From the NCBI GenBank assembly GCA_016200085.1, contig JACQFL010000032.1:1-64000 (forward strand): DNA of 64,000 bases. The letters are read 5' to 3'. Under the pieces are notes generated by a model. That model was not told the origin of the DNA. It did not search any database and saw only the letters and a list, made by a program, of their open reading frames with translations. Source of the DNA: Candidatus Rokuibacteriota bacterium. GTDB lineage: Bacteria > Methylomirabilota > Methylomirabilia > Rokubacteriales > CSP1-6. Positions 9,292 through 24,768 of this stretch are shown one piece after another. Every line of letters begins with the position of its first letter. Within the stretch, counting starts at the first letter, position 1. Position numbers and translations under genes: made by a program.

Positions 9292-10389
9292 GTGCCGACC
9301 TCGAAGCCTCTGATCCTCCACACCGAGTCCTCGCGTGGGCTCGGCGGCCAGGAGCTCCGCATCCTCACGGAAGTGCGCTGGCTGCTCGACGCCGGCTGGG
9401 GCGCGCTCGTCGCTGGCCAGCCCGGGAGCCACCTGGTGACGGAGGCGGGCGCGGCCGGCCTGCCCGTCGTCGAGATCGCCATGCGCGGCGCGACCGACCT
9501 CCGCGCGCTCCTGGCGCTGCGGCGGCTGATGCGCCGGCGTCAGGTCGCGCTCGTGCACACCCACAGCTCCGTCGACAGCTGGCTCGCCGGCCTGGCCGCG
9601 CGCTCGCTCGGCCGCCGCGTCGTGCGCGGCCGTCACGTCTCGATCCCGATTCCCCGGCGACGGGCGCTCGTCTACCGGATCGCCGACCGGGTGCTGACGA
9701 CGGGCGAGGCGATCCGCCAGATCGTGATCGCCGCCGGCGTGCCGGCCGCGCGCGTCATCTCGGTGCCCGCGGGGATCGACACCCGGCGCTTCCATCCCGG
9801 CGTGTCCGGCAAGACCGTGCGCGACGAGCTCGGGCTCACGGGGCCCGTCGTGGGGCTGGTCGCCAACATCCGCGGCTCCAAGGGCCACAACGACTTCCTC
9901 GAGGCAGCCCGGCGCGTGCTCGCGGCGATGCCCGACACGCGCTTCCTGATCGTGGGCGCCGGCGTCGGCTTCGACGAAGTCTCGCGGCGGGTCCGCGAGA
10001 TGGGGCTCGCGGCCGCGGTGATCATGACCGGCTTCCGGCGCGACGTCCCCGAGGTCATGGCCGCGCTCGACGTGCTCGCGCTCCCCTCGACCAGATCGGA
10101 GGCAACGTCGCAGGTGATCCCGCAAGCGTTCGCCGTCGGCACGCCTGCGGTCGGTACCGCGGTGGGCGGGATCCCGGAGATCATCCAGGATGGCGTGACG
10201 GGTCGCCTCGTGGCGCCTGGCGATCCCGCGGCGCTCGCCGGAGCGATCCTCGCGCTCCTGCGCGACCCGGCGGCGGCGCGGGCGATGGCCGAGGCCGGCC
10301 GCCGCCTCGTGCTCGAGCGCCTGACCGTGGACGCCATGATGGCCACCACGACCCGCGTCTACGCCGATCTCCTCGGGCGCGCGCCCTAG
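9292..10389 (+). CDS. GT4-family glycosyltransferase
   Basis: A 365-residue GT-B glycosyltransferase, probably for a cell-surface glycan or glycolipid. The N-terminal half has the glycine loop GLGGQELR and VALVHTHSS. The C-terminal half has GLVANIRGSKGHNDFL, the partner of the FVGR..KG donor loop. SEATSQVIPQAFAVGTPAV is the E-x7-E region with Gln in place of the second acid, followed by GGIPEIIQDGVTG. GTG at 9292 is the only start in front of the first strand. No Shine-Dalgarno precedes it, but a TATACT box lies at 9278-9283, eight bases upstream, so the transcript could be leaderless. Donor and acceptor unknown. Confidence 0.85.
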   Translation: MPTSKPLILHTESSRGLGGQELRILTEVRWLLDAGWGALVAGQPGSHLVTEAGAAGLPVVEIAMRGATDLRALLALRRLMRRRQVALVHTHSSVDSWLAGLAARSLGRRVVRGRHVSIPIPRRRALVYRIADRVLTTGEAIRQIVIAAGVPAARVISVPAGIDTRRFHPGVSGKTVRDELGLTGPVVGLVANIRGSKGHNDFLEAARRVLAAMPDTRFLIVGAGVGFDEVSRRVREMGLAAAVIMTGFRRDVPEVMAALDVLALPSTRSEATSQVIPQAFAVGTPAVGTAVGGIPEIIQDGVTGRLVAPGDPAALAGAILALLRDPAAARAMAEAGRRLVLERLTVDAMMATTTRVYADLLGRAP

Positions 10390-10858: not shown

Positions 10859-11256
10859 TTCTTGCCCACCTCCCAGGGCTGCTTCAGCTCGTGGGTGATC
10901 ACCCGGTCCAGCAGCCGTCCATCTTCGTCCACCGAGACCGCCTCGGTCACGATGTACGTCTTGCCGCGACGGCGGTACTTGTCGGCGATCCAGGCATGGA
11001 CCGTGATGCGCTTGTCCGGAATGGGCGGGTTGTAACAGTGGAACGCGCAGCGTGCATTCACCGATCCGGCGTCCTTGTGGGCGCGGTTGTATGCCGCCAC
11101 GTCCACCTTGTGGGCGATGGTCGGGAAGGGAGCCTCCGCGTCCAGGACGCCCTTGCGGTACTCGTCGAGCATCTCCTGCGTCAGGACGTACGACCAGGCC
11201 TCGAAGGTCTGACCGATCGCCAGCTTCTCCCAGTCCAGCGGTTTCCGTGTGTCCAT
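10849..11256 (-). CDS. MaoC-like hotdog protein, subunit A
   Basis: A 135-residue hotdog-fold protein of the N-terminal FAS1-like dehydratase type (GQTFEAWSYVLTQEMLDEYRKGV, then FPTIAHKVDVAAYNR). The strand KRITVHAWIADKYRRRGKTYIVTEAVSVDEDGRLL ends the domain. ATG at 11256 shares a base with the TGA of the preceding permease (TGATG), so the gene belongs to the transporter operon. On its own this half lacks a convincing catalytic dyad, whereas two-subunit hydratases divide active-site residues between subunits. A CoA-ester hydratase role is inferred from the CoA transferase upstream. Confidence 0.7.
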   Translation of the reverse strand: MDTRKPLDWEKLAIGQTFEAWSYVLTQEMLDEYRKGVLDAEAPFPTIAHKVDVAAYNRAHKDAGSVNARCAFHCYNPPIPDKRITVHAWIADKYRRRGKTYIVTEAVSVDEDGRLLDRVITHELKQPWEVGKKWG

Positions 11257-12083
11257 CAGTGCCCTTTCAGCTTCGGATCGAGCACGTCGCGAAGCGCGTC
11301 GCCGAACATGTTGAACCCGAACACCGCCAGGCTGATCGCCACGCCGGGGTAGATCGCCATCCAGGGGGCGCGGAAGAGATAGCCCTGCGCCGCGCCGCTC
11401 AGCATGCTGCCCCACGCCGGGGTCGGCGGCGGCACGCCGAGACCGAGAAAGCCGAGCGCGGCCTCGGCCAGGATGGCGGTGCCGAGGTTGGCCGTGGCGA
11501 TGACCACGTACGGGGCGAAACAGTAGGGCAGGACGTGGACGAAGACCACACGCGGCTCCGAACCTCCGAGGCCTCGCGCGGCCATCACGTACGCGGTCTC
11601 GCGCACGCTGAGGGCCACGGAGCGGACGACGCGATTGGCCGCGGGAATGAGCGTGAGGGCCACGGCGACGATGACGTTGAACAGGCTCGCCCCCAGGGCC
11701 GCCACCACGGCCAGGGCGAGGACGAGCGTGGGGAAAGCCATCAGCGCATCCATGACCCGCTGGATCGTGAGATCCGTCCGGCCGCCGACGTAGCCGGAGA
11801 TCAGGCCCGACAGGGCGCCCACCGACGTGCCCAGGAGCACCGCCGCGATACCGATCTGGAGCGAGATGCGCGCCCCGTGGACGACCCGGCTGAAGACGTC
11901 GCGGCCGAAATCGTCCGTGCCGAACCAGAACACGCGACCTGGCGGCTGGAATCGCTGCACCGCGCGGACCCGATCGGGATTGTGCCGCGCGATCTGGTCC
12001 GCAAAGATCGCCATCACCACCAGCGAGCAGACGAGCACCGCGCCCACGGCCCCCATCGGCTTTCGCCGTACCGCGTCCATCAT
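11256..12083 (-). CDS. Oligopeptide/dipeptide-type ABC transporter permease (DppC-like)
   Basis: A 275-residue inner-membrane permease of the DppC/OppC class. An N-terminal OppC helix (MGAVGAVLVCSLVVMAIFAD) is followed by FGTDDFGRDVFSRVVHGAR, the family signature, then five more helices. The ATPase-coupling EAA loop is AARGLGGSEPRVVFVHVLP. The C-terminus, FGDALRDVLDPKLKGH, is diagnostic. The start ATG overlaps the TGA of the DppB-like gene (ATGA). It forms a channel with the adjacent permease, fed by the binding protein at 14662. No ATPase genes are present nearby. Confidence 0.92.
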   Translation of the reverse strand: MMDAVRRKPMGAVGAVLVCSLVVMAIFADQIARHNPDRVRAVQRFQPPGRVFWFGTDDFGRDVFSRVVHGARISLQIGIAAVLLGTSVGALSGLISGYVGGRTDLTIQRVMDALMAFPTLVLALAVVAALGASLFNVIVAVALTLIPAANRVVRSVALSVRETAYVMAARGLGGSEPRVVFVHVLPYCFAPYVVIATANLGTAILAEAALGFLGLGVPPPTPAWGSMLSGAAQGYLFRAPWMAIYPGVAISLAVFGFNMFGDALRDVLDPKLKGH

Positions 12084-13036
12084 GCGTACCGCGTCCTCGG
12101 ATCGAACCAGGCGTAGAGCAGGTCCGTGATCAGGTTGAGCGCGATCACCACGACGGCGAACAGGATCACGATGGTCTGCACGACCGGGTAGTCCCGGTGC
12201 AGGATCGCATCGACCAGGAACCGGCCCACCCCCGGCAGCGTGAAGATCGTCTCGCTGATCACCGCGCCGCCGAGGAGATTGCCCATCTGGACCGCCGAGA
12301 GCGTCAGCACCGGCGCCAGCGCGTTCTTGAGGACGTGGCGGCCCACGACCATCGCGCCGTGCAGGCCCTTGGCGTGGGCGGTGCGCACGTAATCCTCCCG
12401 GAGGACCTCGAGCACCGACGACCGGGTGATGCGGCTCAGGATCGCGGCCGTCGCGTATCCGATGATCAGCGCGGGCCAGATGAACTGCTGGAGGTTGAGC
12501 CGCGGGTTGTCCGTCGGGCTCACGTAGCCGAGCGGCGGCATCCAGTGAAACTGCTGGGCCAGCAGGAGCACCAGCAGCGTCCCGGTCCAGAACGCGGGAA
12601 GCGCGAGACCGGCGACGGAGAAGACCCGGAAGACATAATCGATCCAGGTGTCCTGGAAGACGGCGGACAGGACCCCGGTCGGCAGCGCGATCGTCCACGA
12701 GATGACGACCGCCAGCACGGCGAGCTCCAGGGTGACCGGGATCCGCCGGCCGAGCTCCACCATGACCGGCTCGTTCGTCCAGAGCGACGTCCCGGGATCG
12801 AGACGCGCGACTCCCGCGAGGAACGTGAGGTACTGGACGTGATACGGCCGGTCGAGGCCGAGCTGCTGGCGGAGCTGGCGCACCTCCTGGGCGCTGGCGA
12901 CGCTGCCCGACTCGCCGCTCAGGAGCATCTGCGCGACGTCCCCCGGCGCGACGCGCATGATCACGAACACGATCATGGACACGGCGATCAGGACGGGCAC
13001 GGTGGCGATCAGCCGGCGCAGCAGATACCGGGACAC
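12080..13036 (-). CDS. Oligopeptide/dipeptide-type ABC transporter permease (DppB-like)
   Basis: A 318-residue permease of the DppB class. It starts with the typical YLLRRLIATVPVLIAVSMIVF helix and LAPGD-like box (MRVAPGDVA). After a periplasmic loop come five helices, with the EAA coupling loop YVRTAHAKGLHGAMVVGRHVLKNAL. It ends in LITDLLYAWFDPRTRYA, the canonical DppB tail. It overlaps the DppC-like gene by four bases and follows the binding protein by 18 bases. It is clearly paralogous to the permease at 19287 (shared TRSSVLEVLR and GVLSAV words), so the two transporter sets come from one duplication. Confidence 0.93.
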   Translation of the reverse strand: MSRYLLRRLIATVPVLIAVSMIVFVIMRVAPGDVAQMLLSGESGSVASAQEVRQLRQQLGLDRPYHVQYLTFLAGVARLDPGTSLWTNEPVMVELGRRIPVTLELAVLAVVISWTIALPTGVLSAVFQDTWIDYVFRVFSVAGLALPAFWTGTLLVLLLAQQFHWMPPLGYVSPTDNPRLNLQQFIWPALIIGYATAAILSRITRSSVLEVLREDYVRTAHAKGLHGAMVVGRHVLKNALAPVLTLSAVQMGNLLGGAVISETIFTLPGVGRFLVDAILHRDYPVVQTIVILFAVVVIALNLITDLLYAWFDPRTRYA

Positions 13037-13054
13037 GTCGCCCTCCCGGCGGGG

Positions 13055-14662
13055 CTAGCCCCGCGCCAGCCAGACCTGCTCGCGGCTCTCGCTCAGATAC
13101 CGGCTGTAGTGCGGGCGATAGTTGCGCACGACGCCGGCGTAGAGATAGAAGGTCACCCGGAAGCCCAGCACGGCCTTCATGACGTTCTGGAGCGCGACCC
13201 GCTGGAGCTGGTGGACGACGGGCAGCCGTGCTTTCGGGTCCCGGATCTGCGACTGCTCGAGGAAGAGCTTCTCCACCTCCGGCACGCACATCGCGGAGTA
13301 GTTGCGCCCGGCGTTGCAGAGGTAGTTCTGGCCGAAGATCGCGTCGGGATCGTCCACCGCGGTGGAGTAACTGCCCCCGTAGAGCTCGAAGTCGCGCTTC
13401 CGCGTCTTGTCGTAGAACGCGGCGGTCTCGTGGATCTCGAGGTTCACGTCGATACCGACCTGGCCGAGCTGGTCCTTCAGCAAGACGGCGGCGCTCTCGA
13501 ACTGCTGGCCCCGTCGCACGATCATCGTCGCCTTGAAGCCGTTGGGGAAGCCGGCCTCGGCCAGGAGCTTCCGGGCCCTGGCGCGCTCGGCGGCCTTGTC
13601 GAGCGCGTAGCCCGGCAGCTTCTGGAGCTCAGCGGCGGGAAGCGCCCACGGGCCGGTGGACAGCATCATGCCGCTGGGCTCGCCGGCGCCGTCCGTCATC
13701 ACATCGACGGCCTCCTTCCGGTCGATCGCCATCGAGGCGGCCTGGCGGACGCGGGGATCGCTCCAGGGCTTGCGCGTCGCGTTCATCTCCATGGTGAGGG
13801 CGCTCATCTGGGTGAGCCTGGCGATCACGCCCCGCGAGCCCACCCGCAGTCGGGCCTGCTCGGCCTGGGACTCGGTGGTCGCCTCGTGCAGGAGCAGCTG
13901 GCCTGCGATGTAGGCGTTCACGGCCGTGTTGAGATCCGGGATGACGAAGGTCTTGACGCCGTCCAGGTACGGCCGGCCCTTGACGTGGTAGTCGGGATAC
14001 TTCTCGACCTCCAGGCTCACGCCGCGCACGTACTGCTTCAGCTTGAACGGGCCGGTCCCCACGACGTCCCGCTTCATGTCGCCCTTGGCGTCGAGGACGT
14101 CCTTCGGGAAGATGACGTTCCACCCCTGGCCGATGTTGGCGAGCAGGGACGCCATCGGCCGCTTGAGCACGAAGCGCACCGTGTGGTCGTCCGGGGTCTC
14201 GATGCCGCTGACGGCGTCGAAGATCAGCTTGCGGACGCTGAACACCCCTTTCGGCGGGTCGATGATGCGATCCCAGCTGGCCCTGACGTCCTCCGCCTTG
14301 AACGGCTTGCCGTGGTGGAACTTGACGCCCCGACGCAGGTGGAACGTGTAGAGCCTTCCGTCCTGGCTGATCTCCCAGCGCTCGGCCAGGTCGGGGACGA
14401 TCCGGGTCGAGTCGAAGGGATCGTACTGGACCAGGCGGTTGTAGCAGGGCGCCAGGGGCAAGAGCGCCGCGATCGTCTCCGATTGATGCAGATCGAAGTG
14501 GGGCGCGTCGGCAAATGTGTCCTGGGTCAGGATCCCGCCGTACCGCGGCGGCTCGTCGGCGGCTCCGGCGCCACGCGGCGTCGCGCCCCAGGCCGCCCAG
14601 CCGACCCCCGCTACCAGCAGCTCTCGGCGGGACAGGGACGAGTCGATCCTCTTCTGATCCAT
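13055..14662 (-). CDS. ABC transporter substrate-binding protein, family 5
   Basis: A 535-residue extracytoplasmic binding protein of the DppA/OppA family. ATG at 14662 is set by a strong GGAGGAGG Shine-Dalgarno ten bases upstream. The signal peptide SLSRRELLVAGVGWAAWG has a twin-arginine-like pair and an alanine-rich cleavage site (GAGAADEPP). Family signatures are YDPFDSTRIVPDLAERW, FHLRRGVKFHHGKPFKAEDV and GTGPFKLK. An NxLCNAGRNYS region with two cysteines near the C-lobe resembles the other binding protein at 17642. Ligands of the family range from peptides to sugars, opines and organic acids. Here the operon suggests a carboxylic acid. Confidence 0.92.
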   Translation of the reverse strand: MDQKRIDSSLSRRELLVAGVGWAAWGATPRGAGAADEPPRYGGILTQDTFADAPHFDLHQSETIAALLPLAPCYNRLVQYDPFDSTRIVPDLAERWEISQDGRLYTFHLRRGVKFHHGKPFKAEDVRASWDRIIDPPKGVFSVRKLIFDAVSGIETPDDHTVRFVLKRPMASLLANIGQGWNVIFPKDVLDAKGDMKRDVVGTGPFKLKQYVRGVSLEVEKYPDYHVKGRPYLDGVKTFVIPDLNTAVNAYIAGQLLLHEATTESQAEQARLRVGSRGVIARLTQMSALTMEMNATRKPWSDPRVRQAASMAIDRKEAVDVMTDGAGEPSGMMLSTGPWALPAAELQKLPGYALDKAAERARARKLLAEAGFPNGFKATMIVRRGQQFESAAVLLKDQLGQVGIDVNLEIHETAAFYDKTRKRDFELYGGSYSTAVDDPDAIFGQNYLCNAGRNYSAMCVPEVEKLFLEQSQIRDPKARLPVVHQLQRVALQNVMKAVLGFRVTFYLYAGVVRNYRPHYSRYLSESREQVWLARG

Positions 14663-17370: not shown

Positions 17371-17641
17371 CGCTTCCTCCTCTTCCTTCGCCTCCGCGGG
17401 CCGCTCACGTTCCAACGCGTCGCCGACGTTGTCTGGCCCTCCGTGTACCTCGAACGCGCGCGTCGCACAAGGTCTCCGGGGCGGAAAAGTCGGCGCATGG
17501 AACATCTGTGCTATGGAGTGCGTCGTTTGCCTCATTGACTCTGAATATACCCTCGTCGTACCAGGGCTCATCATCTCTGAAGCGTCAGACGCGCCACGGC
17601 GTTGATGGACGGGACCCGACCCGCCGGAGAGGAGTGTGACG
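17371..17641. promoter_or_regulatory. Divergent intergenic region between the two transporter operons
   Basis: These 271 bases separate the divergent MmgE/PrpD gene and the second binding-protein gene, so both promoters should lie here. The stretch around 17530-17570 is locally AT-richer (cattgactctgaatatac) and is the likeliest promoter area, but no -35/-10 pair with good spacing is convincing on either strand. No operator palindrome or riboswitch was recognised. Confidence 0.35.
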
Positions 17642-19273
17642 ATGCGTACGTTGTCTTCCTCTGGCGACCCGCAGCGTACCCACCGCGGCCTGAGCCTCCC
17701 CGTGCTCCTTCTGGGATCGATGATCGTGCTGGTACTCGGTCCGGCCGCCCTGGCGGCCGACCGACCCGACAGAGGAGGGACGGTGGTCTGGGCCGTCCAC
17801 GAGTACATGCCGAGCTTCGACCTCCATTACGAGACCAGCTACATCGCCGGCCAGCCGCTCGGTCCGCTCTACAACAACCTGGTCACGCTCGACGTCTACG
17901 ACGGGAACAAGATCGTCGGTGATCTGGCCGAGCGCTGGGACGTCGGCGACGACGGCACGCGTGTGACGTTCCGTCTCCGCAAAGGCGTGAAGTTCCACGA
18001 CGGCTCGGACTTCACGTGTGCCGACGCCCAGTGGAGTCTCGACCGCCTTGCCAAGCGCGGCAACCCGACCTTCACGTCCGTGCTCAAGGGCGTCTACGGC
18101 TCGTCGAGGTGCACCGACGACTTCACGCTGGTGGTCTCCCTCAAGCAGCCGTCGGCGGGCTTCCTGTCGCTGCTGGCCGGCGTCAACGCGGCGGTGATGA
18201 AGCGGGGCATCGACGAGCGCGCCGACCGCAAGCACCCCGGGTTCCTCGTCGGCACGGGACCGTTCAAGTACAAGTCGCACACGCCAGGGGTCGATTTCCA
18301 GGCGCAGCGCAACCCGAGCTACTGGAAACCCGGCCTCCCGCACCTCGACGGCTATCGTGCGGTGGTCATGTCCGACCTGACCAAGATCTTCGCCTCCTTC
18401 CGGGCCCGCCAGCTCACCATGACGGGCATCGCCCGGCACCTCGAGAAGCCGGAAGCCGACATCTTGAAGAAGGAGTTTCCGGACGCGGTGGTCGGCCTCG
18501 GGCCGCGCGCCTGCTGGGACAACTACGTGATGAACGTCACGGCGCCTCCGTTCAACGACCGGCGCGTGCGCAAGGCGATCGCGCTGGCCACCGACCGGGA
18601 GAAGATGATCGAGATCGCCGTCGAAGGATGGGGGCTCCTCGGAGGTTTCATCAGTCCCTACCTCCCCTTTGCGCTGCCGGCCGAGGAGCTGAAGCAGTAC
18701 GCGCAGTACCAGCCCGACATGGACAAGCGCCGCGCCGAGGCCCGGCGCCTGCTGGCGGACGCGGGATATGCGAAGGGCCTGACCGTCGAACTGCTGCTGC
18801 GCCGCGGACCGCTGTACGAGCCGGGCGCGCTGTCGCGGCAGGACGACCTCAAGAAAATCGGGGTCACCGAGAAGATCGTCCTCCTCGACACGGCCACGAT
18901 CCGCGATCGAACGTTGAAGGGCGACTTCCAGACCTACACCCTGCCCGCCGCGGTTCAGTACGACGACCCCGATGTCTACTACGGGCGGCTCGTCTGCGAG
19001 AACGCGTCCAACACGGGCCGGTACTGCAACGCGGAGTTCGACAAGCTCTACAGGGCCCAGACCGAGACCTTCGACGTCACCAAGCGGGCCGAGATCACGC
19101 GCAAGATGGAGCGCATCCTGCTTGCCGACCTCCCCGACGATCGCGGCTACTACTGGACGTCCTCGATGGGGTACTGGAACCGGGTGCAGAAGTGGCCGCC
19201 CATCGCCGGCACGTCCGTGTACAACTTCGGCAAGTTCGAGCAGGTCTGGTGCCGCGGCGGCAAGTGCATGTAG
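17642..19273 (+). CDS. ABC transporter substrate-binding protein, family 5 (second set)
   Basis: A 543-residue binding protein with a signal peptide (SLPVLLLGSMIVLVLGPAALAAD, cleavage near ALA-AD). Family 5 signatures are GTVVWAVHEYMPSFDLHYET, NKIVGDLAERWDV, FRLRKGVKFHDGSDF and VGTGPFKYK. ATG at 17642 is preferred over an in-frame GTG at 17636, because the ggagaggag ribosome site at 17625-17633 is eight bases from the ATG but only two from the GTG. It starts a plus-strand operon with its own DppB- and DppC-like permeases, 13 bases downstream. Like the first set it keeps paired cysteines near the C-lobe (VCENASNTGRYC). Confidence 0.92.
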   Translation: MRTLSSSGDPQRTHRGLSLPVLLLGSMIVLVLGPAALAADRPDRGGTVVWAVHEYMPSFDLHYETSYIAGQPLGPLYNNLVTLDVYDGNKIVGDLAERWDVGDDGTRVTFRLRKGVKFHDGSDFTCADAQWSLDRLAKRGNPTFTSVLKGVYGSSRCTDDFTLVVSLKQPSAGFLSLLAGVNAAVMKRGIDERADRKHPGFLVGTGPFKYKSHTPGVDFQAQRNPSYWKPGLPHLDGYRAVVMSDLTKIFASFRARQLTMTGIARHLEKPEADILKKEFPDAVVGLGPRACWDNYVMNVTAPPFNDRRVRKAIALATDREKMIEIAVEGWGLLGGFISPYLPFALPAEELKQYAQYQPDMDKRRAEARRLLADAGYAKGLTVELLLRRGPLYEPGALSRQDDLKKIGVTEKIVLLDTATIRDRTLKGDFQTYTLPAAVQYDDPDVYYGRLVCENASNTGRYCNAEFDKLYRAQTETFDVTKRAEITRKMERILLADLPDDRGYYWTSSMGYWNRVQKWPPIAGTSVYNFGKFEQVWCRGGKCM

Positions 19274-19286
19274 ACCGGTACCCCCC

Positions 19287-20243
19287 ATGGTCACGTACAT
19301 CCTGCGTCGGATCCTCCTGATGGTCCCGACGCTCCTGGGAGCCGTCACGCTGATCTTCCTGGTCATGCGCCTGCTCCCGGGGGATGCCGCGCTGTACATC
19401 CTGGGATCGGACGAAGCGAGCCAGCTCAACAAGGAGGCGCTGGCGCAGGTCAGGCAGGAGCTGGGACTCGACCACTCGCTGCCGGTGCAGTACGTGCAAT
19501 GGCTCTGGGGCGTCGTGCGGCTAGACTTCGGCACCTCGTACTGGACGAAGCAGCCGGTCATCGAGGAGCTCGCCCAGCGCTATCCCATGACGGCGAACCT
19601 GGCGGTGCTGAGCCTGCTCCTGTCGACCGTGATCGCGGTGCCGATCGGCGTCCTCTCGGCGGTGAAGCAGGACACGTTCGCCGACTATGCCGCGCGAATC
19701 TTCGTCATCACCGGGCTGTCGCTGCCCAACTTCTGGCTGGCCATCCTCATCATCCTGGGGCTGGTCCACTACTTCAGGTGGCTGCCGCCCCTCGACTACG
19801 CACCGTTCTGGGTGGACCCGTGGCTGAACGTGAAGCAGCTCGTGTTCCCGGCCGCGGCCACCGGATACCGCCTCTCCGCCATCAGCGCGCGCATGACGCG
19901 CTCCAGTGTCCTCGAGGTCCTGCGCGACGACTACGTGCGCACGGCGCGGGCCAAGGGCTTGCACGAGCGGGCCGTCGTGCTCAAGCACGCGCTCAGGAAC
20001 GCATTGCTGCCGGTGATCACGATCACCAGCGTCGAGCTGCTGATCCTCTTCGGGGGCCTGGTCGTGGTCGAGACGGTGTTCACGATCCCGGGCATCGGGA
20101 GGTTCCTGGTGGACGCCATCATCCATCGGGACTACCCCTCGATCCAGGCCCTGGTCTTCGTGTTCTCCGTGTTCGTGGTGGTGGTGAACTTGCTCGTCGA
20201 CATCATCTACGCGCTCCTGGACCCACGGATCCGGTATGCCTGA
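19287..20243 (+). CDS. ABC transporter permease, DppB-like (second set)
   Basis: A 318-residue DppB-class permease, exactly the length of its paralogue at 12080. It opens with YILRRILLMVPTLLGAVTLIFLVMRLLPGD. It has the EAA loop YVRTARAKGLHERAVVLKHALRNAL and closes with LVDIIYALLDPRIRYA. ATG at 19287 follows the binding-protein stop by 13 bases. The final codons overlap the start of the DppC-like gene by eight bases. Membrane topology is six helices with a periplasmic loop after helix one. It would pair with the permease at 20236. Confidence 0.93.
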   Translation: MVTYILRRILLMVPTLLGAVTLIFLVMRLLPGDAALYILGSDEASQLNKEALAQVRQELGLDHSLPVQYVQWLWGVVRLDFGTSYWTKQPVIEELAQRYPMTANLAVLSLLLSTVIAVPIGVLSAVKQDTFADYAARIFVITGLSLPNFWLAILIILGLVHYFRWLPPLDYAPFWVDPWLNVKQLVFPAAATGYRLSAISARMTRSSVLEVLRDDYVRTARAKGLHERAVVLKHALRNALLPVITITSVELLILFGGLVVVETVFTIPGIGRFLVDAIIHRDYPSIQALVFVFSVFVVVVNLLVDIIYALLDPRIRYA

Positions 20244-21177
20244 GCTCGAGGGCGGCGCGCTCCGGATCCCCGCGGTGCCGGTCACCACGGTCGAGGTGAC
20301 CGACGCGGCGGCGGCGCGGGCGCGCGTGGTATCGGCTGCCTGGCACTCGTTGACGTCGTTTCTCAGGCGGAAACCGCTGGGGGCCATTGGCGCGGTGGTG
20401 CTGCTGATATTCGTGGCGGTGGCCGTCCTGGCGCCCGTGCTGGCCACGCACGATCCGGATCTGAACAACCACCGTGCGCGGATCAAATCTCCGTCGGCGC
20501 AGCACTGGTTCGGGACCGACAATTTCGGCCGGGACATCTACAGCCGCGTCGTCTACGGGGCGCGGATCTCCATGTCCGTGGGGATCCTGGCCACGCTGCT
20601 CGGGACCCTGGTCGGCGCGCTGGCCGGCCTGTGCAGCGGGTTCTTCGGGGGCCGGGTCGATCAGACCGTCCAGCGGATCGCCGACGTCATGTTCACCATT
20701 CCGCCGCTGGTCCTGGCGATGGCAATCGTGACCATGCTGGGGCCCTCGATGGTCAACGTCACCATCGCGATCGCCATCCCGCGCATGCCGAACACGAACC
20801 GGGTGATCCGGTCCGCCGTGCTCGGCGTCAAGGAGAGCCTCTTCGTCGAGGCGTCACGCGCCGTCGGCTCCACGAGCTGGCACATCATGTGGCGCCACCT
20901 GCTTCCCAACATTACCGCCCCGTACATCGTGGTCGCCACCGCCAGCCTGGGAGGCGCGATCCTCGTCGAAGCGTCCCTCAGCTTTCTGGGGCTGGGCGTG
21001 CCGCCCCCCGTGCCGTCGTGGGGCCGCATGCTGTCGCTGGAAGGGATGCGCTACTTCGAGACGGCGCCCTGGATGGCGTTTGCCCCGGGGGTGTTCATCA
21101 GCGCGGCCGTCTTCGGCGCCAACCTGTTCGGCGACGCGCTGCGCGACGTCCTGGACCCGAAGCTGCGCGGCCAATGA
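20236..21177 (+). CDS. ABC transporter permease, DppC-like (second set)
   Basis: A 313-residue DppC-class permease with a 40-residue cytoplasmic N-terminal extension, longer than its paralogue at 11256. It has FLRRKPLGAIGAVVLLIFVAVAVLAPVLA as the first helix, FGTDNFGRDIYSRVVYGAR, the EAA loop EASRAVGSTSWHIMWRHLLP, and the terminal FGDALRDVLDPKLRGQ. The start overlaps the DppB-like gene by eight bases. No ATP-binding subunit follows: the next 130 bases are empty and then comes a decayed gene on the other strand. The ATPases must be encoded elsewhere or shared. Confidence 0.92.
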   Translation: MPELEGGALRIPAVPVTTVEVTDAAAARARVVSAAWHSLTSFLRRKPLGAIGAVVLLIFVAVAVLAPVLATHDPDLNNHRARIKSPSAQHWFGTDNFGRDIYSRVVYGARISMSVGILATLLGTLVGALAGLCSGFFGGRVDQTVQRIADVMFTIPPLVLAMAIVTMLGPSMVNVTIAIAIPRMPNTNRVIRSAVLGVKESLFVEASRAVGSTSWHIMWRHLLPNITAPYIVVATASLGGAILVEASLSFLGLGVPPPVPSWGRMLSLEGMRYFETAPWMAFAPGVFISAAVFGANLFGDALRDVLDPKLRGQ

Positions 21178-21307: not shown

Positions 21308-21703
21308 TTATCTCGCCGCCGGCTCCATCCCTCTCTTCTTGATGATGGCCGCCGCCGCCGGCGAGGAGAGGAACTGGATCAGGGCTCGGCCCGCTTCGGC
21401 TGAGGTCGCCGTGGCGGCGATGCCGGCCGCCCAGGTGAATCGCTCGGCGAGTTCGACGACGGTCCCTTTCATCAGCTTCGCTTTGGCGTCGACTTCGTTG
21501 GTGATGGCGAGTCGATCCATCACCCAGCGGAAAGGGATGCCGCGCGCGTGCCCGAGGTTCCCATCGGGATACGCGATCGACTTCGCGGCGAGCAGCCGGC
21601 GCTTCAGCGCATCGACCGAGCTGATGTCAGGTTTGGAGCGGCCCGCCGGCACGCCCACCGCGACCCCCGACCGCGCGAGCGTGACTACGGTCCTGCGGGT
21701 CAT
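21308..21703 (-). pseudogene. Remnant of a molybdate-type ABC substrate-binding protein (ModA-like)
   Basis: An open stretch of 131 codons that matches only the C-terminal half of ModA-type proteins: LARSGVAVGVPAGRSKPDISSVDALKR, then AKSIAYPDGNLGHARG, and finally ALIQFLSSPAAAAIIKKRGMEPA. ModA is normally about 250 residues. The whole N-terminal lobe is missing, and about 50 residues have been deleted between GTVVELAE and WAAGIAATA. No signal peptide is present. It converges on the permease operon and lies next to a transposase fragment, which fits loss through rearrangement. Confidence 0.7.
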
Positions 21704-21839
21704 CGCCGCCGTGCAGGATCCCCTCGCCGTTGCCGGCCATCCTCACCCACCTTGCCCGCTCCGGCGCCCCCGCGCCGCCCGGCCCGGCCCCCACCCGCGC
21801 CCGCCGCCCTCACGTAGCCCCGAGGGAACAGCGCTTGTC

Positions 21840-22155
21840 CGTCCCATGCGCCGCGGCGCGCGAGTTTTTTTACCCGGGACCAGTCCTGCTGGATCCACTC
21901 GCGCACGCGGCGATCGTCGCGCTCCTTGGTGCGCGGCTGAGGGCGTTGAGGACTGAACCCGCACGCGCGCAGCAGCCGCCCGACGTGATCGGGATGGTAG
22001 ACGACCTTGAGCTGGTGGCGGATGACATCGACGATCCACCGGCACGTCCACAGGCTCGTGGCATAGCCAGCCGCTTCCGGCCCCGCCACCACCATGCGCA
22101 CCAACCGACGCCGCTGCGCAGCGCTCAGCTTCGGAGGGCGGCCCGGCGCGGCCGC
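21840..22155 (-). mobile_element. Truncated IS630-family transposase remnant
   Basis: The minus strand encodes the N-terminal helix-turn-helix region of an IS630-type transposase: GRPPKLSAAQRRRLVRMV, LWTCRWIVDVIRHQLKVVYHPDHVGRLLRACGFSPQ, and REWIQQDWSRVKKLARR. The reading frame then diverges, and the DDE catalytic part (normally a further 170 or more residues) is absent. No terminal inverted repeats or TA target duplications could be identified. It is a dead insertion-sequence fragment and may have promoted the deletions around it. Confidence 0.75.
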
Positions 22156-22184: not shown

Positions 22185-22353
22185 GACTCCTCCTTGCAGA
22201 TCTCGCCTCTCGCGCAACGTTCCCTCAGGATCTCGAGTGCGCGGTCACCGCCGACGCCGGGGGCTCGGTTGAATGCCCACTGTGGGCACGAGCCATCGGA
22301 TGGTCGCGACGACTACCATGATCAGCACGATCCACGGATCCCATCGGCATCAT
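22185..22353 (-). pseudogene. Frameshifted small membrane protein with SHOCT domain
   Basis: A GGAGG site and ATG ATG at 22353 mark a former start. In successive frames the sequence encodes MMPMG, then WDPWIVLIMVVVATIRWLV (one membrane helix), then the SHOCT-type tail DRALEILRERCARGEICKEE. Two frameshifts separate these pieces, and the tail runs directly into the transposase remnant. Intact relatives are 70-90 residues. The start lies 24 bases after the end of the flavoprotein gene, so it was probably the second gene of that operon. No product can be made now. Confidence 0.6.
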
Positions 22354-22377: not shown

Positions 22378-23529
22378 TCAGAACCAGCGCCGCAGCCACC
22401 ACTGCTCGAAGCCGACCTTGCCCCAGTGCCAGAAGCGGCTCGGCCGTCGCATCGTCACGGTGGGCGCCGGCTCGCTGTAGAAGTTCCCGCCCGCGTACGT
22501 GGCCACGCCGTGGCCCATCTCCACGATTCAGTAGCCCGAGCCGTCGAAGCGTTGGTGGGCCGCGCGCCCCGTGATCGCCGCCGCGATGTTCTCGGCCACG
22601 GCCTCGGCCTGGTGGTGGGCGAACACCCCGGCCTTCGGCAGCATCAGCCCGACCGGAAGCTTGATCGCCGTCACGTCGCCGATCGCGAACACGCGCTCGT
22701 GTGTCGTGGCGAGCGTGCCGGGATCCACCGCGACCCAGCCGCTGTCTCCCGCCAGTCCCGCCTCTTTGACGACCGCGGGGCAGCGGTGCGGCGGTGTGAG
22801 GACAAGGAGATCGTAGTTGGCGCGCGCTCCGTTTTCGAACGTGAGCTCCCTTCGACCGGGGTCCACCGCGGAGAGCTTGTGCTGACCGTGGAACCCGATA
22901 CCCTTGCCCTCCACCATCCCCTTGATGGCCTCGCCCATCGCCTTGCCGGCGACAGGCATGGGAAGCGTCTCGGGGGTGTAGACGTCCACCTCGCTCCGCT
23001 CCCGCAGCCGACGCTCCCTGAGCGACGCCTCGATCAGCATCGCGGTCTCGTAGGGCGCCGCGGGGCAGCGGAACGGCAGCCCGGCGACGAGAACCACAAC
23101 GCGTCCGCCCCGGAACCCGGCCAGCGCGTCGCGGAGACGGAGGACGTCGTCGAGGACGTTGATGTCGTAGCCCTCCTCCGCAAGCCCCGGGATGCCGCCG
23201 CGCCATCCCTCGGCGCCGAGGGCGACGACGACGAAGTCGCTCGACACCTCGCGCCGCTCGGTCCGCACGATGCGGCGCGCGGAGTCGATCGCGCGGACGT
23301 CGTCCTGGAGGACCTCGATGCCCTTCCTCGCGAGCCGCCCGAAGTCGCGGCTGATGTGCCGCGGCTGGCGGCGGCCGAGCATCATCCAGAGAAACGACGG
23401 CGTGAACACGTGCTGCGCCTCGCGCTCGACGAGGACCACCCGGTGCGACTGGTCGAGCCGGCGTCGCAGCATGTTGGCGGCCACGAGCCCGCCGACGCCG
23501 CCGCCGAGGATCACTGTCGTCGCCATCAC
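22378..23529 (-). CDS. Sulfide:quinone reductase-like FAD flavoprotein with one in-frame TGA (selenocysteine candidate or nonsense mutation)
   Basis: Codons 1-333 encode an FAD/NAD(P)-binding oxidoreductase of the sulfide:quinone reductase-like group. The dinucleotide fold is VILGGGVGGLVAANML, the second FAD motif is VFAIGDVTA near residue 285, and LPFRCPAAPYE near residue 155 carries the first redox cysteine. At 22528-22530 a TGA follows FDGSGY. Reading on in the same frame gives 49 more codons (IVEMGHGVATYAGGNFYSEP ... WHWGKVGFEQWWLRRWF) to a second TGA at 22378. That tail is typical of the family, which normally has Cys at the TGA position. A hairpin follows directly. Either the gene is newly inactivated or TGA is decoded. 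Confidence 0.7.
22501..22515 (-). promoter_or_regulatory. Stem-loop 12 bases after the in-frame TGA (bacterial SECIS-like)
   Basis: On the coding (minus) strand, bases 13-27 after the TGA form ggccac-ggc-gtggcc: a perfect 6-bp stem with a 3-base loop whose first base is G. The loop begins 18 bases after the TGA. This fits the published description of bacterial SECIS elements (apical loop 16-37 bases after UGA, small loop, G among its first two bases). Chance hairpins are frequent at this GC content, so this supports but does not prove recoding. Confidence 0.4.
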
Positions 23530-23541
23530 CGGCCTCCTCTC

Positions 23542-24681
23542 TCAGAACGTGTAACGGACGACCGCGAACACGTTCGAGTTGCCCTCGAATTGGCCGAACT
23601 CGCTGCGACGCGGACCACGGAAGACGTTCAGGCCCAGGATGAACGAGAGCGCGTCGGTTACATGGTAGCGTGCCTCCGGCCCCGCGTACCAGTCGCCCTC
23701 GTTCGGGCTCGCGAGCGCGAACAGACCCAGCTTCAGCGTCTGGTGCAGGAAGAGCCGCGTGAGCCGCGCCGTGAGGACATGCCGCACGGCGGGCCGCTTC
23801 GGCATCCCCGGGCCGCGGGTCGCGACGTACGCTTCGTGGTCCTCCATCACCTGGACGGAGTACTGGCCGGCGACCGTGAAGTCTGGCCGGACCTCGCGCT
23901 GGTACCCGGCGAGCAGCCTCACCGAGGAGTTCTCGACCGCCGGGTTGCGCCCGGAACGCTCGGAGCGCGAGTCATAGTAGCCGGTCTCGAAGCTCAGGAC
24001 GCCGCCCAGCGTCGCGCCTTGAGCGCTCGCGCCATACACGTTGAGGGGCGGGAAGAAGAGCCGCAGGCGCGGTCCGGATTCCACCTCGCCCGCCGGGGCA
24101 TGGAAGAACCCCCGGTAGGTGTAGAGCGAGACGCCCCATCGGAGGAGGTTCCGGAACAACCGCAGCCCGGCGTCGGCGTGCTCGACGGACGGCGAGGGAT
24201 CGTCGGTCCGCCGCGACTCGATGGCGGCCATGGGATCGTCGGTCCTCCTCACCATTCGTTGACGGTCGGGCGGGGCGATGACGTCCCGGGCGACGACGCC
24301 CGGCAGCCGGAGGATCCTGTCGGTGAGCCGCGCGATGCGGCCGAGCGTTTCGGGCGTGAAGACGCCGGCCTCGCTCCACACGCCGACGACCCGGTCGGGG
24401 CCGGGGGCGAGCCCGGGGATCACCTCGGGGTAGTCGATCGCCTGCGCGTGCGGATCGGGCTCGAGTCCCCGGAGGCCGAGGTCGGTGCCGAGCACCGAAC
24501 AGCGCGCCCCGCGGTCGCGGAGCCGGTCGAGCGTGGCCCGCGCCTCTCTCGGCGCGCGCGTGCTACCGAGCAGCGCGGCGTCCTGGAGGCAGCAGAGGGT
24601 GAGCGCATGGCCGTCGCCAGCGGGGGACTCGGCGAGCGCGAGCGCGCGCCGGCTCGCCGGCGTGTCGGGCGAGCTCGTGAG
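23542..24681 (-). pseudogene. In-frame chimera of DsrE-like, RND-exporter and outer-membrane-barrel fragments
   Basis: One open frame of 380 codons (in-frame GTG at 24495) joins three unrelated pieces. The first, roughly 24681-24400, resembles DsrE/DsrF-type sulfur-relay proteins (ALALAESPAGDGHALTLCCL, GARCSVLGTDLGLRGLEP). The second, roughly 24400-24260, looks like the periplasmic loop of RND exporters (GVFTPETLGRIARLTDRILRLPGV). The last 200 codons look like the C-terminal strands of an outer-membrane barrel, with alternating hydrophobics and the terminal VFAVVRYTF ending in Phe. No complete domain is present, and no start or signal peptide precedes it. Deletion scars are the likeliest cause. 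Confidence 0.5.
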
Positions 24682-24768
24682 TTAAAGCCAAAGTGCCCCA
24701 GCCGCCGGATCTTGAACGGGCGCCGAAGAAGGACTCCACCGACGTTATACTGGCGTTGACTTTTCCAT
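24681..24768 (-). pseudogene. N-terminal stub of a glyoxalase/VOC dioxygenase
   Basis: A GGAGG ribosome site followed by ATG at 24768 starts MEKSTPV and a stop. Shifted by one base, the frame continues YNVGGVLLRRPFKIRRLGHFGFN, which is the characteristic first beta-strand (RRLGHFGFN) of VOC-fold ring-cleavage dioxygenases. It then breaks off at 24681 into the DsrE-like fragment. Only about 30 residues of an expected 300 remain. Confidence 0.5.

Follow-up and report, generated by a model that had tools for sequence, protein, structure and literature searches.

An SQR-like flavoprotein gene with a single in-frame TGA

The window analyzed here is a 64,000-nucleotide stretch of DNA (positions 1 to 64,000 of contig JACQFL010000032.1, assembly GCA_016200085.1) from Candidatus Rokuibacteriota bacterium, phylum Methylomirabilota. 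Its minus strand carries a gene for an FAD flavoprotein resembling sulfide:quinone reductase (SQR) and flavocytochrome c sulfide dehydrogenase (FCSD) (22378-23526), identified by Pfam, NCBIfam, homologue alignment, and an AlphaFold model. A first-pass annotation of this DNA had described the gene as open on either side of one TGA, and translation of the minus-strand frame 23529-22378 confirmed this: the TGA at 22530-22528 is the sole internal interruption, 49 codons lie between it and the terminal stop, which is also a TGA, and no further defect is present in the gene, which comprises 382 codons including the putative selenocysteine (Sec) codon. The ATG at 23526 is a likelier start than the GTG at 23529 used in the P0001 reading, since it is preceded by a Shine-Dalgarno-like AGGAGG and coincides with the starts of homologues, which begin MAT or MAS. 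Counted from this ATG, the internal TGA (22528-22530, minus strand) is residue 333 (334 in the GTG reading), and the Cys of the FRCPAAPYE motif, the putative redox partner (codon 23065-23067, minus strand), is residue 154 (Cys155 of P0001).

The internal TGA falls in an invariant cysteine column

In an alignment of 20 homologues that included the window protein, and in which TGA was entered as C, only two Cys columns are invariant, those of Cys154 and position 333 (ATG numbering). The latter holds TGA in 8/20 rows and Cys in 12/20. The eight TGA genes each belong to a different genome of one phylum, the window genome being G000. The seven found elsewhere, all in Methylomirabilota, share 59-89% identity with the window protein (G089, 89%; G010, 85%; G086, G006, G015, and G087, 69-70%; and G058, from another family of the same class, 59%), and each has its TGA at exactly the same column with an open frame after it. 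Judged from this alignment, the recurrence of TGA at the position 333 column is far beyond chance. Annotation blind to Sec would cut these genes off at 332 residues. Genome G087 has, in addition to its Sec-type copy, a second copy of the same SQR family without an internal stop (contigs C33 and C175).

The two invariant columns were then located on a characterized enzyme by profile alignment, which matched the first Cys to residue 161 and the TGA column to residue 339 of a human SQOR construct, corresponding to Cys201 and Cys379 with an offset of 40 counted by hand. By this alignment, Cys155 is the equivalent of Cys201 and the predicted Sec334 that of Cys379 (P0001 numbering), in agreement with the first-pass proposal that the TGA occupies the second redox-Cys position and pairs with the FRCPAAPYE Cys.

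The genome encodes a complete selenocysteine system

The first-pass proposal depended on selA, selB, selC, and selD, and tRNA-Sec, selA, selB, and selD were all found in the genome, outside the window. The genes for tRNA-Sec (9397-9490, 69.8 bits), selA (10955-12307, 587 bits), and selB (12343-14226, 363 bits) are contiguous in one row of less than 5 kb on contig C54 (9397-14226), and selD is located on contig C12 (115796-116740, 335 bits). selD has an in-frame UGA of its own (SCAGU), as does fdhA, encoding formate dehydrogenase alpha, on contig C36 (655-3735, 1146 bits; HQARVUH). These findings indicate that the window organism uses selenocysteine. Across the phylum, tRNA-Sec is present in 77/95 genomes.

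The open frame, and nothing beyond it, would also fit UGA being read as another amino acid, such as Trp, by suppression or under a variant genetic code. We give this explanation practically no credence, as every homologue lacking the TGA has Cys at this column, the same gene terminates with TGA, and the full Sec machinery is accompanied by in-frame UGA at the classical Sec positions of selD and fdhA.

Purifying selection extends past the TGA

Between the Sec genes, dN/dS (Nei-Gojobori) is mostly 0.1-0.4 on both sides of the TGA. The values before the TGA are about 0.14-0.3, and those after it, which are based on fewer sites, are 0.07-0.4, broadly the same as before it. Purifying selection past the TGA speaks against a true stop, because codons behind a true stop would go unprotected. 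The branch leading to the window gene since its split from G089 carries 13 synonymous and 8 non-synonymous codon changes, whereas its sister carries 22 and 14, respectively, indicating neither an excess of non-synonymous change nor relaxation on the window branch.

These data bear on the counter-argument raised in the first-pass annotation, namely that the flanking genes are decayed and that the TGA might be a fresh nonsense mutation from TGC or TGT, which would leave the gene with a truncated pseudogene product. The description of the flanks holds, in that adjacent operon genes are truncated or frameshifted in the window genome. However, the same TGA is found in seven other genomes that are up to 41% diverged, the 49 codons past it are under purifying selection, the SQR-like gene is otherwise without defect, and the genome has a complete Sec system. 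We therefore reject a recent nonsense mutation as very improbable.

A SECIS-like hairpin follows the TGA

The perfect 6-bp stem reported in the first-pass annotation as starting 12 bases after the TGA was also recovered (22501-22515, minus strand). It consists of GGCCAC paired with GTGGCC around a 3-nt loop, GGC, with GG first, and has a free energy of -8.9 kcal/mol for the hairpin alone; the hairpin begins 12 nt and its loop 18 nt after the TGA. This arrangement satisfies the published limits for bacterial SECIS elements (PMC13188914), as the earlier spacing argument held, but these limits are weakly discriminating, as codon redraws often yield such hairpins. When the protein was held fixed and codons were drawn from the family's usage, 39% of redraws gave some stem of at least 6 bp in an allowed position, and 12.5% gave this exact stem. 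By itself, the hairpin is weak evidence in a GC-rich gene. We rejected it as stand-alone evidence for Sec, given the redraws and the presence of a similar hairpin in a Cys form (G014). A scan of this region against Rfam returned no match, and covariation amounted to a single compensatory pair, a level reached in 42/500 shuffles and too weak to use.

Conservation of the stem codons is more telling than the presence of the hairpin. All seven rokubacterial Sec genes build the stem from the same four codons, GGC, CAC, GTG, and GCC, whereas the codon of the loop Gly varies. Elsewhere in the same seven genes, conserved Gly, His, Val, and Ala columns use a single codon in 4/24, 4/6, 1/20, and 2/21 cases, respectively, giving a rough joint expectation, as a product of counts worked out by hand, of 5 in 10,000 for all four stem codons being invariant. 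In G058, 5 of the 6 pairs are kept after a Val to Met change, leaving a 5-bp hairpin of -6.5 kcal/mol alone. At the positions occupied by His and Val in the Sec branch, distant Cys forms carry mostly Asp or Gly and Lys/Arg, so that the stem-forming residues are themselves a peculiarity of the Sec branch.

The encoded protein resembles sulfide:quinone reductases

The Pfam domains Pyr_redox_2 (PF07992) and FCSD_central (PF21706) both matched the window protein above cut-off, and sequence matches in the PDB were to human SQOR, flavocytochrome c, and bacterial SQRs. The AlphaFold model (pLDDT 93.7) has its nearest folds among SQRs and flavocytochrome c (TM 0.82-0.90). By Pfam, model, and fold match, the FAD two-domain fold with SQR-type topology is present, as are both redox positions flanking the FAD, one of which would be Sec. 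SQRs have C-terminal amphipathic membrane-contact helices; the model contains one Trp-rich C-terminal helix, formed by the amphipathic segment RFWHWGKVGFEQWWLRRWF (22381-22437, minus strand), a putative membrane contact. The protein thus shares with human SQOR and bacterial SQRs (PDB 6oi5, 8dhk, 3hyv, and 3sz0) the fold, FAD domain, and two redox positions, but is about 21-24% identical to them and has a predicted Sec in place of the Cys379 equivalent.

It is conceivable that the protein is not a quinone reductase but a subunit of a sulfide dehydrogenase of the flavocytochrome c type, or another reductase that handles persulfides; the Sec reading would be unaffected. FCSD_central scores above cut-off, the fold similarity to FCSD almost equals that to SQR, and the flavin subunit of FCSD (1fcd and 5n1t) shares the RCPxxPYE motif at the first Cys. 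Unlike FCSD, however, the window protein has an intracellular-looking start and the C-terminal amphipathic helix, which resembles the SQR membrane-contact region; no cytochrome gene was observed immediately next to it, either here or in the operon of relatives, and SQRs are the best matches in both sequence and fold. We regard the FCSD-type assignment as unlikely.

Based on the data presented above, the gene very probably encodes a putatively membrane-associated SQR-like flavoenzyme whose second redox Cys is Sec, the UGA being read by tRNA-Sec and SelB, both of which are encoded in the genome, under the guidance of the downstream hairpin. In human SQOR, Cys201 and Cys379 hold a trisulfide, with Cys379 carrying a transferable persulfide and Cys201 forming a charge-transfer complex with FAD (PMC11039317). 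The Sec of the Methylomirabilota branch would sit at the persulfide-carrying residue. By analogy to the human enzyme, HS- would attack the Cys/Sec bridge, the selenium side would hold the sulfane sulfur, and the charge-transfer adduct with FAD would form at Cys155. Electrons would then pass through FAD to quinone, with substrate and quinone use predicted from the family, and the sulfane sulfur would be handed to an acceptor.

The Methylomirabilota genes form an apparently separate branch from NF049943

The first-pass annotation had considered a Sec flavoprotein to be new, a claim that did not stand. NF049943, "type III sulfide quinone reductase, selenoprotein subtype," was first predicted by deep-Sep in 2025 in Desulfosediminicola (PMC12013277) and is listed with an HxxU motif (PMC13188914). 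A Sec-containing FAD-dependent CoA-disulfide reductase-type protein (TIGR03385; PMC13188914, Table 1) has also been catalogued; it too is a flavoprotein disulfide reductase with Sec, but differs from the window protein in belonging to another subfamily and having a UGxP motif. Sec in an SQR at the Cys379-equivalent column is thus of a kind already predicted in 2025 in other bacteria, and the Methylomirabilota genes are a distinct branch of it.

NF049943 and the window protein are both SQR-like flavoproteins, and their Sec columns coincide: the HxxU column corresponds to the predicted Sec of the window protein, where the motif reads S-G-Y-U, and H-G-Y-U in L010 and L046. NF049943 is also the best NCBIfam match of the window protein, but the score of 215.6 bits falls short of the cut-off, which is 525. 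Among 95 Methylomirabilota genomes, the best score is about 250 bits and 0/95 reach 525. Single-substitution scoring against this profile indicated that Cys-to-Ala at 334 costs 5.6 bits, equal to the cost at the first redox Cys, that His placed at -3 gains 5.2 bits, and that substitution of Cys250 has no effect. Sec members, Cys members, and an ordinary Cys-type SQOR-like protein (L042, genome G037) score alike, at about 200-250 bits, and the nearest relatives outside the branch are Cys forms with 50-54% identity from Gemmatimonadota, Nitrospirota, Acidobacteriota, Chloroflexota, and others. The Methylomirabilota Sec-SQR therefore apparently constitutes a branch separate from NF049943, as judged by profile scores. 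Sec in this branch likely arose separately, because the branch is no nearer to NF049943 than mainstream SQOR is and its nearest outsiders are Cys forms.

In a maximum-likelihood tree built with the Sec column masked, the eight Sec genes and three Cys genes (L011, L049, and L054, from G019, G094, and G090, respectively) form one group (support 82/93), within which the Cys trio groups with the window's own sub-branch (95/89). The position of G058 is unstable when C-terminal columns are removed. An AU test rejected a single clade of all eight Sec genes (p = 5.5e-5), and did not reject a clade of the seven rokubacterial Sec genes without the Cys trio (p = 0.067). The tree is explained most economically by a single gain of Sec and a single reversion to Cys. 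We regard a Sec-to-Cys reversion in the Cys trio as likely, though tentative, because the latter p value leaves the seven-gene clade unrejected. All three Cys genes keep the hairpin behind a TGC codon, with one pair changed on both sides, from C-G to G-C, in G090, and this hairpin is possibly a fossil SECIS left after reversion.

The full scenario, in which the Methylomirabilota subfamily gained Sec independently of the desulfobacterial NF049943 and G019, G094, and G090 later returned to Cys with the now useless hairpin retained as a fossil, is one to which we assign slightly less than an even chance. If true, selenium would have been adopted convergently at a single active-site atom, and a rare return from Sec to Cys would have followed. 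The branch would in any case place a Sec-SQR lineage, apparently distinct from the single one catalogued so far, in a phylum widespread in soil and groundwater, and its natural Sec/Cys pairs, at about 70% identity, allow a direct test of the contribution of selenium to sulfide oxidation. In the accessible literature on Rokubacteria or Methylomirabilota selenoproteins, we found no report naming the window protein. A 2026 study of groundwater MAGs by Deng et al., as cited in a review, reportedly predicted 63 selenoprotein genes in one Methylomirabilota MAG, and it may already list this protein.

The surrounding operon appears collapsed in the window genome

In relatives, the SQR gene is preceded by genes for an ArsR-type regulator, DsrE, DsrE/F-like, and DsrH-like proteins, an MMPL/RND transporter, a secreted-looking protein, and an outer-membrane protein; some operons also contain a UbiE-like methyltransferase, and a SHOCT-domain membrane protein lies downstream. 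DsrE-type proteins carry sulfane sulfur, and the DsrE/DsrF/DsrH-like neighbors in relatives are therefore natural candidate acceptors for the sulfur that the enzyme would release.

In the window, remnants of the DsrH, MMPL, and outer-membrane protein genes, which are separate and intact in relatives such as L073 and L077, are fused by deletions (23542-24696, minus strand). A chimeric upstream ORF (23542-24495, minus strand) joins a DsrH tail, an MMPL transporter fragment, and the C-terminal 234 residues of the outer-membrane protein, and a DsrH-like coding remnant with 71% identity to the DsrH of L073 occupies 24376-24696 (minus strand). Downstream, comparison with relatives revealed a frame-shifted remnant of the small SHOCT-domain membrane protein (22187-22334, minus strand). 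No close copy of the MMPL partner was found elsewhere in the window genome, the best matches being 24-26% identical. With the operon collapsed, another sulfur acceptor would be needed in this organism.

The upstream fusion, the frame-shifted SHOCT gene downstream, and the missing MMPL partner would fit a selenoprotein gene by descent that survives in the window genome as an unexpressed relic, the sulfur-relay operon having been deleted around it. Yet the gene, its ribosome site, and the hairpin are all intact, the window branch shows no relaxation, and the collapse of the flanks could also be an assembly error of the draft genome, and we consider a relic improbable. Two accounts of the flanks fit, partial decay of the locus with the gene itself still constrained or an error in the draft assembly at this point.

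Directly downstream of the SHOCT remnant, an ORF at 21700-22104 (minus strand) resembles, by eye, the N-terminal part of an IS630-type transposase, which may explain the local decay. Farther along, an intact-looking ABC peptide-transporter set, comprising a solute-binding protein and two permeases, lies on the plus strand at 17636-21177, convergent with the selenoprotein gene, and two of its three genes have counterparts beside the SQR gene in L072.
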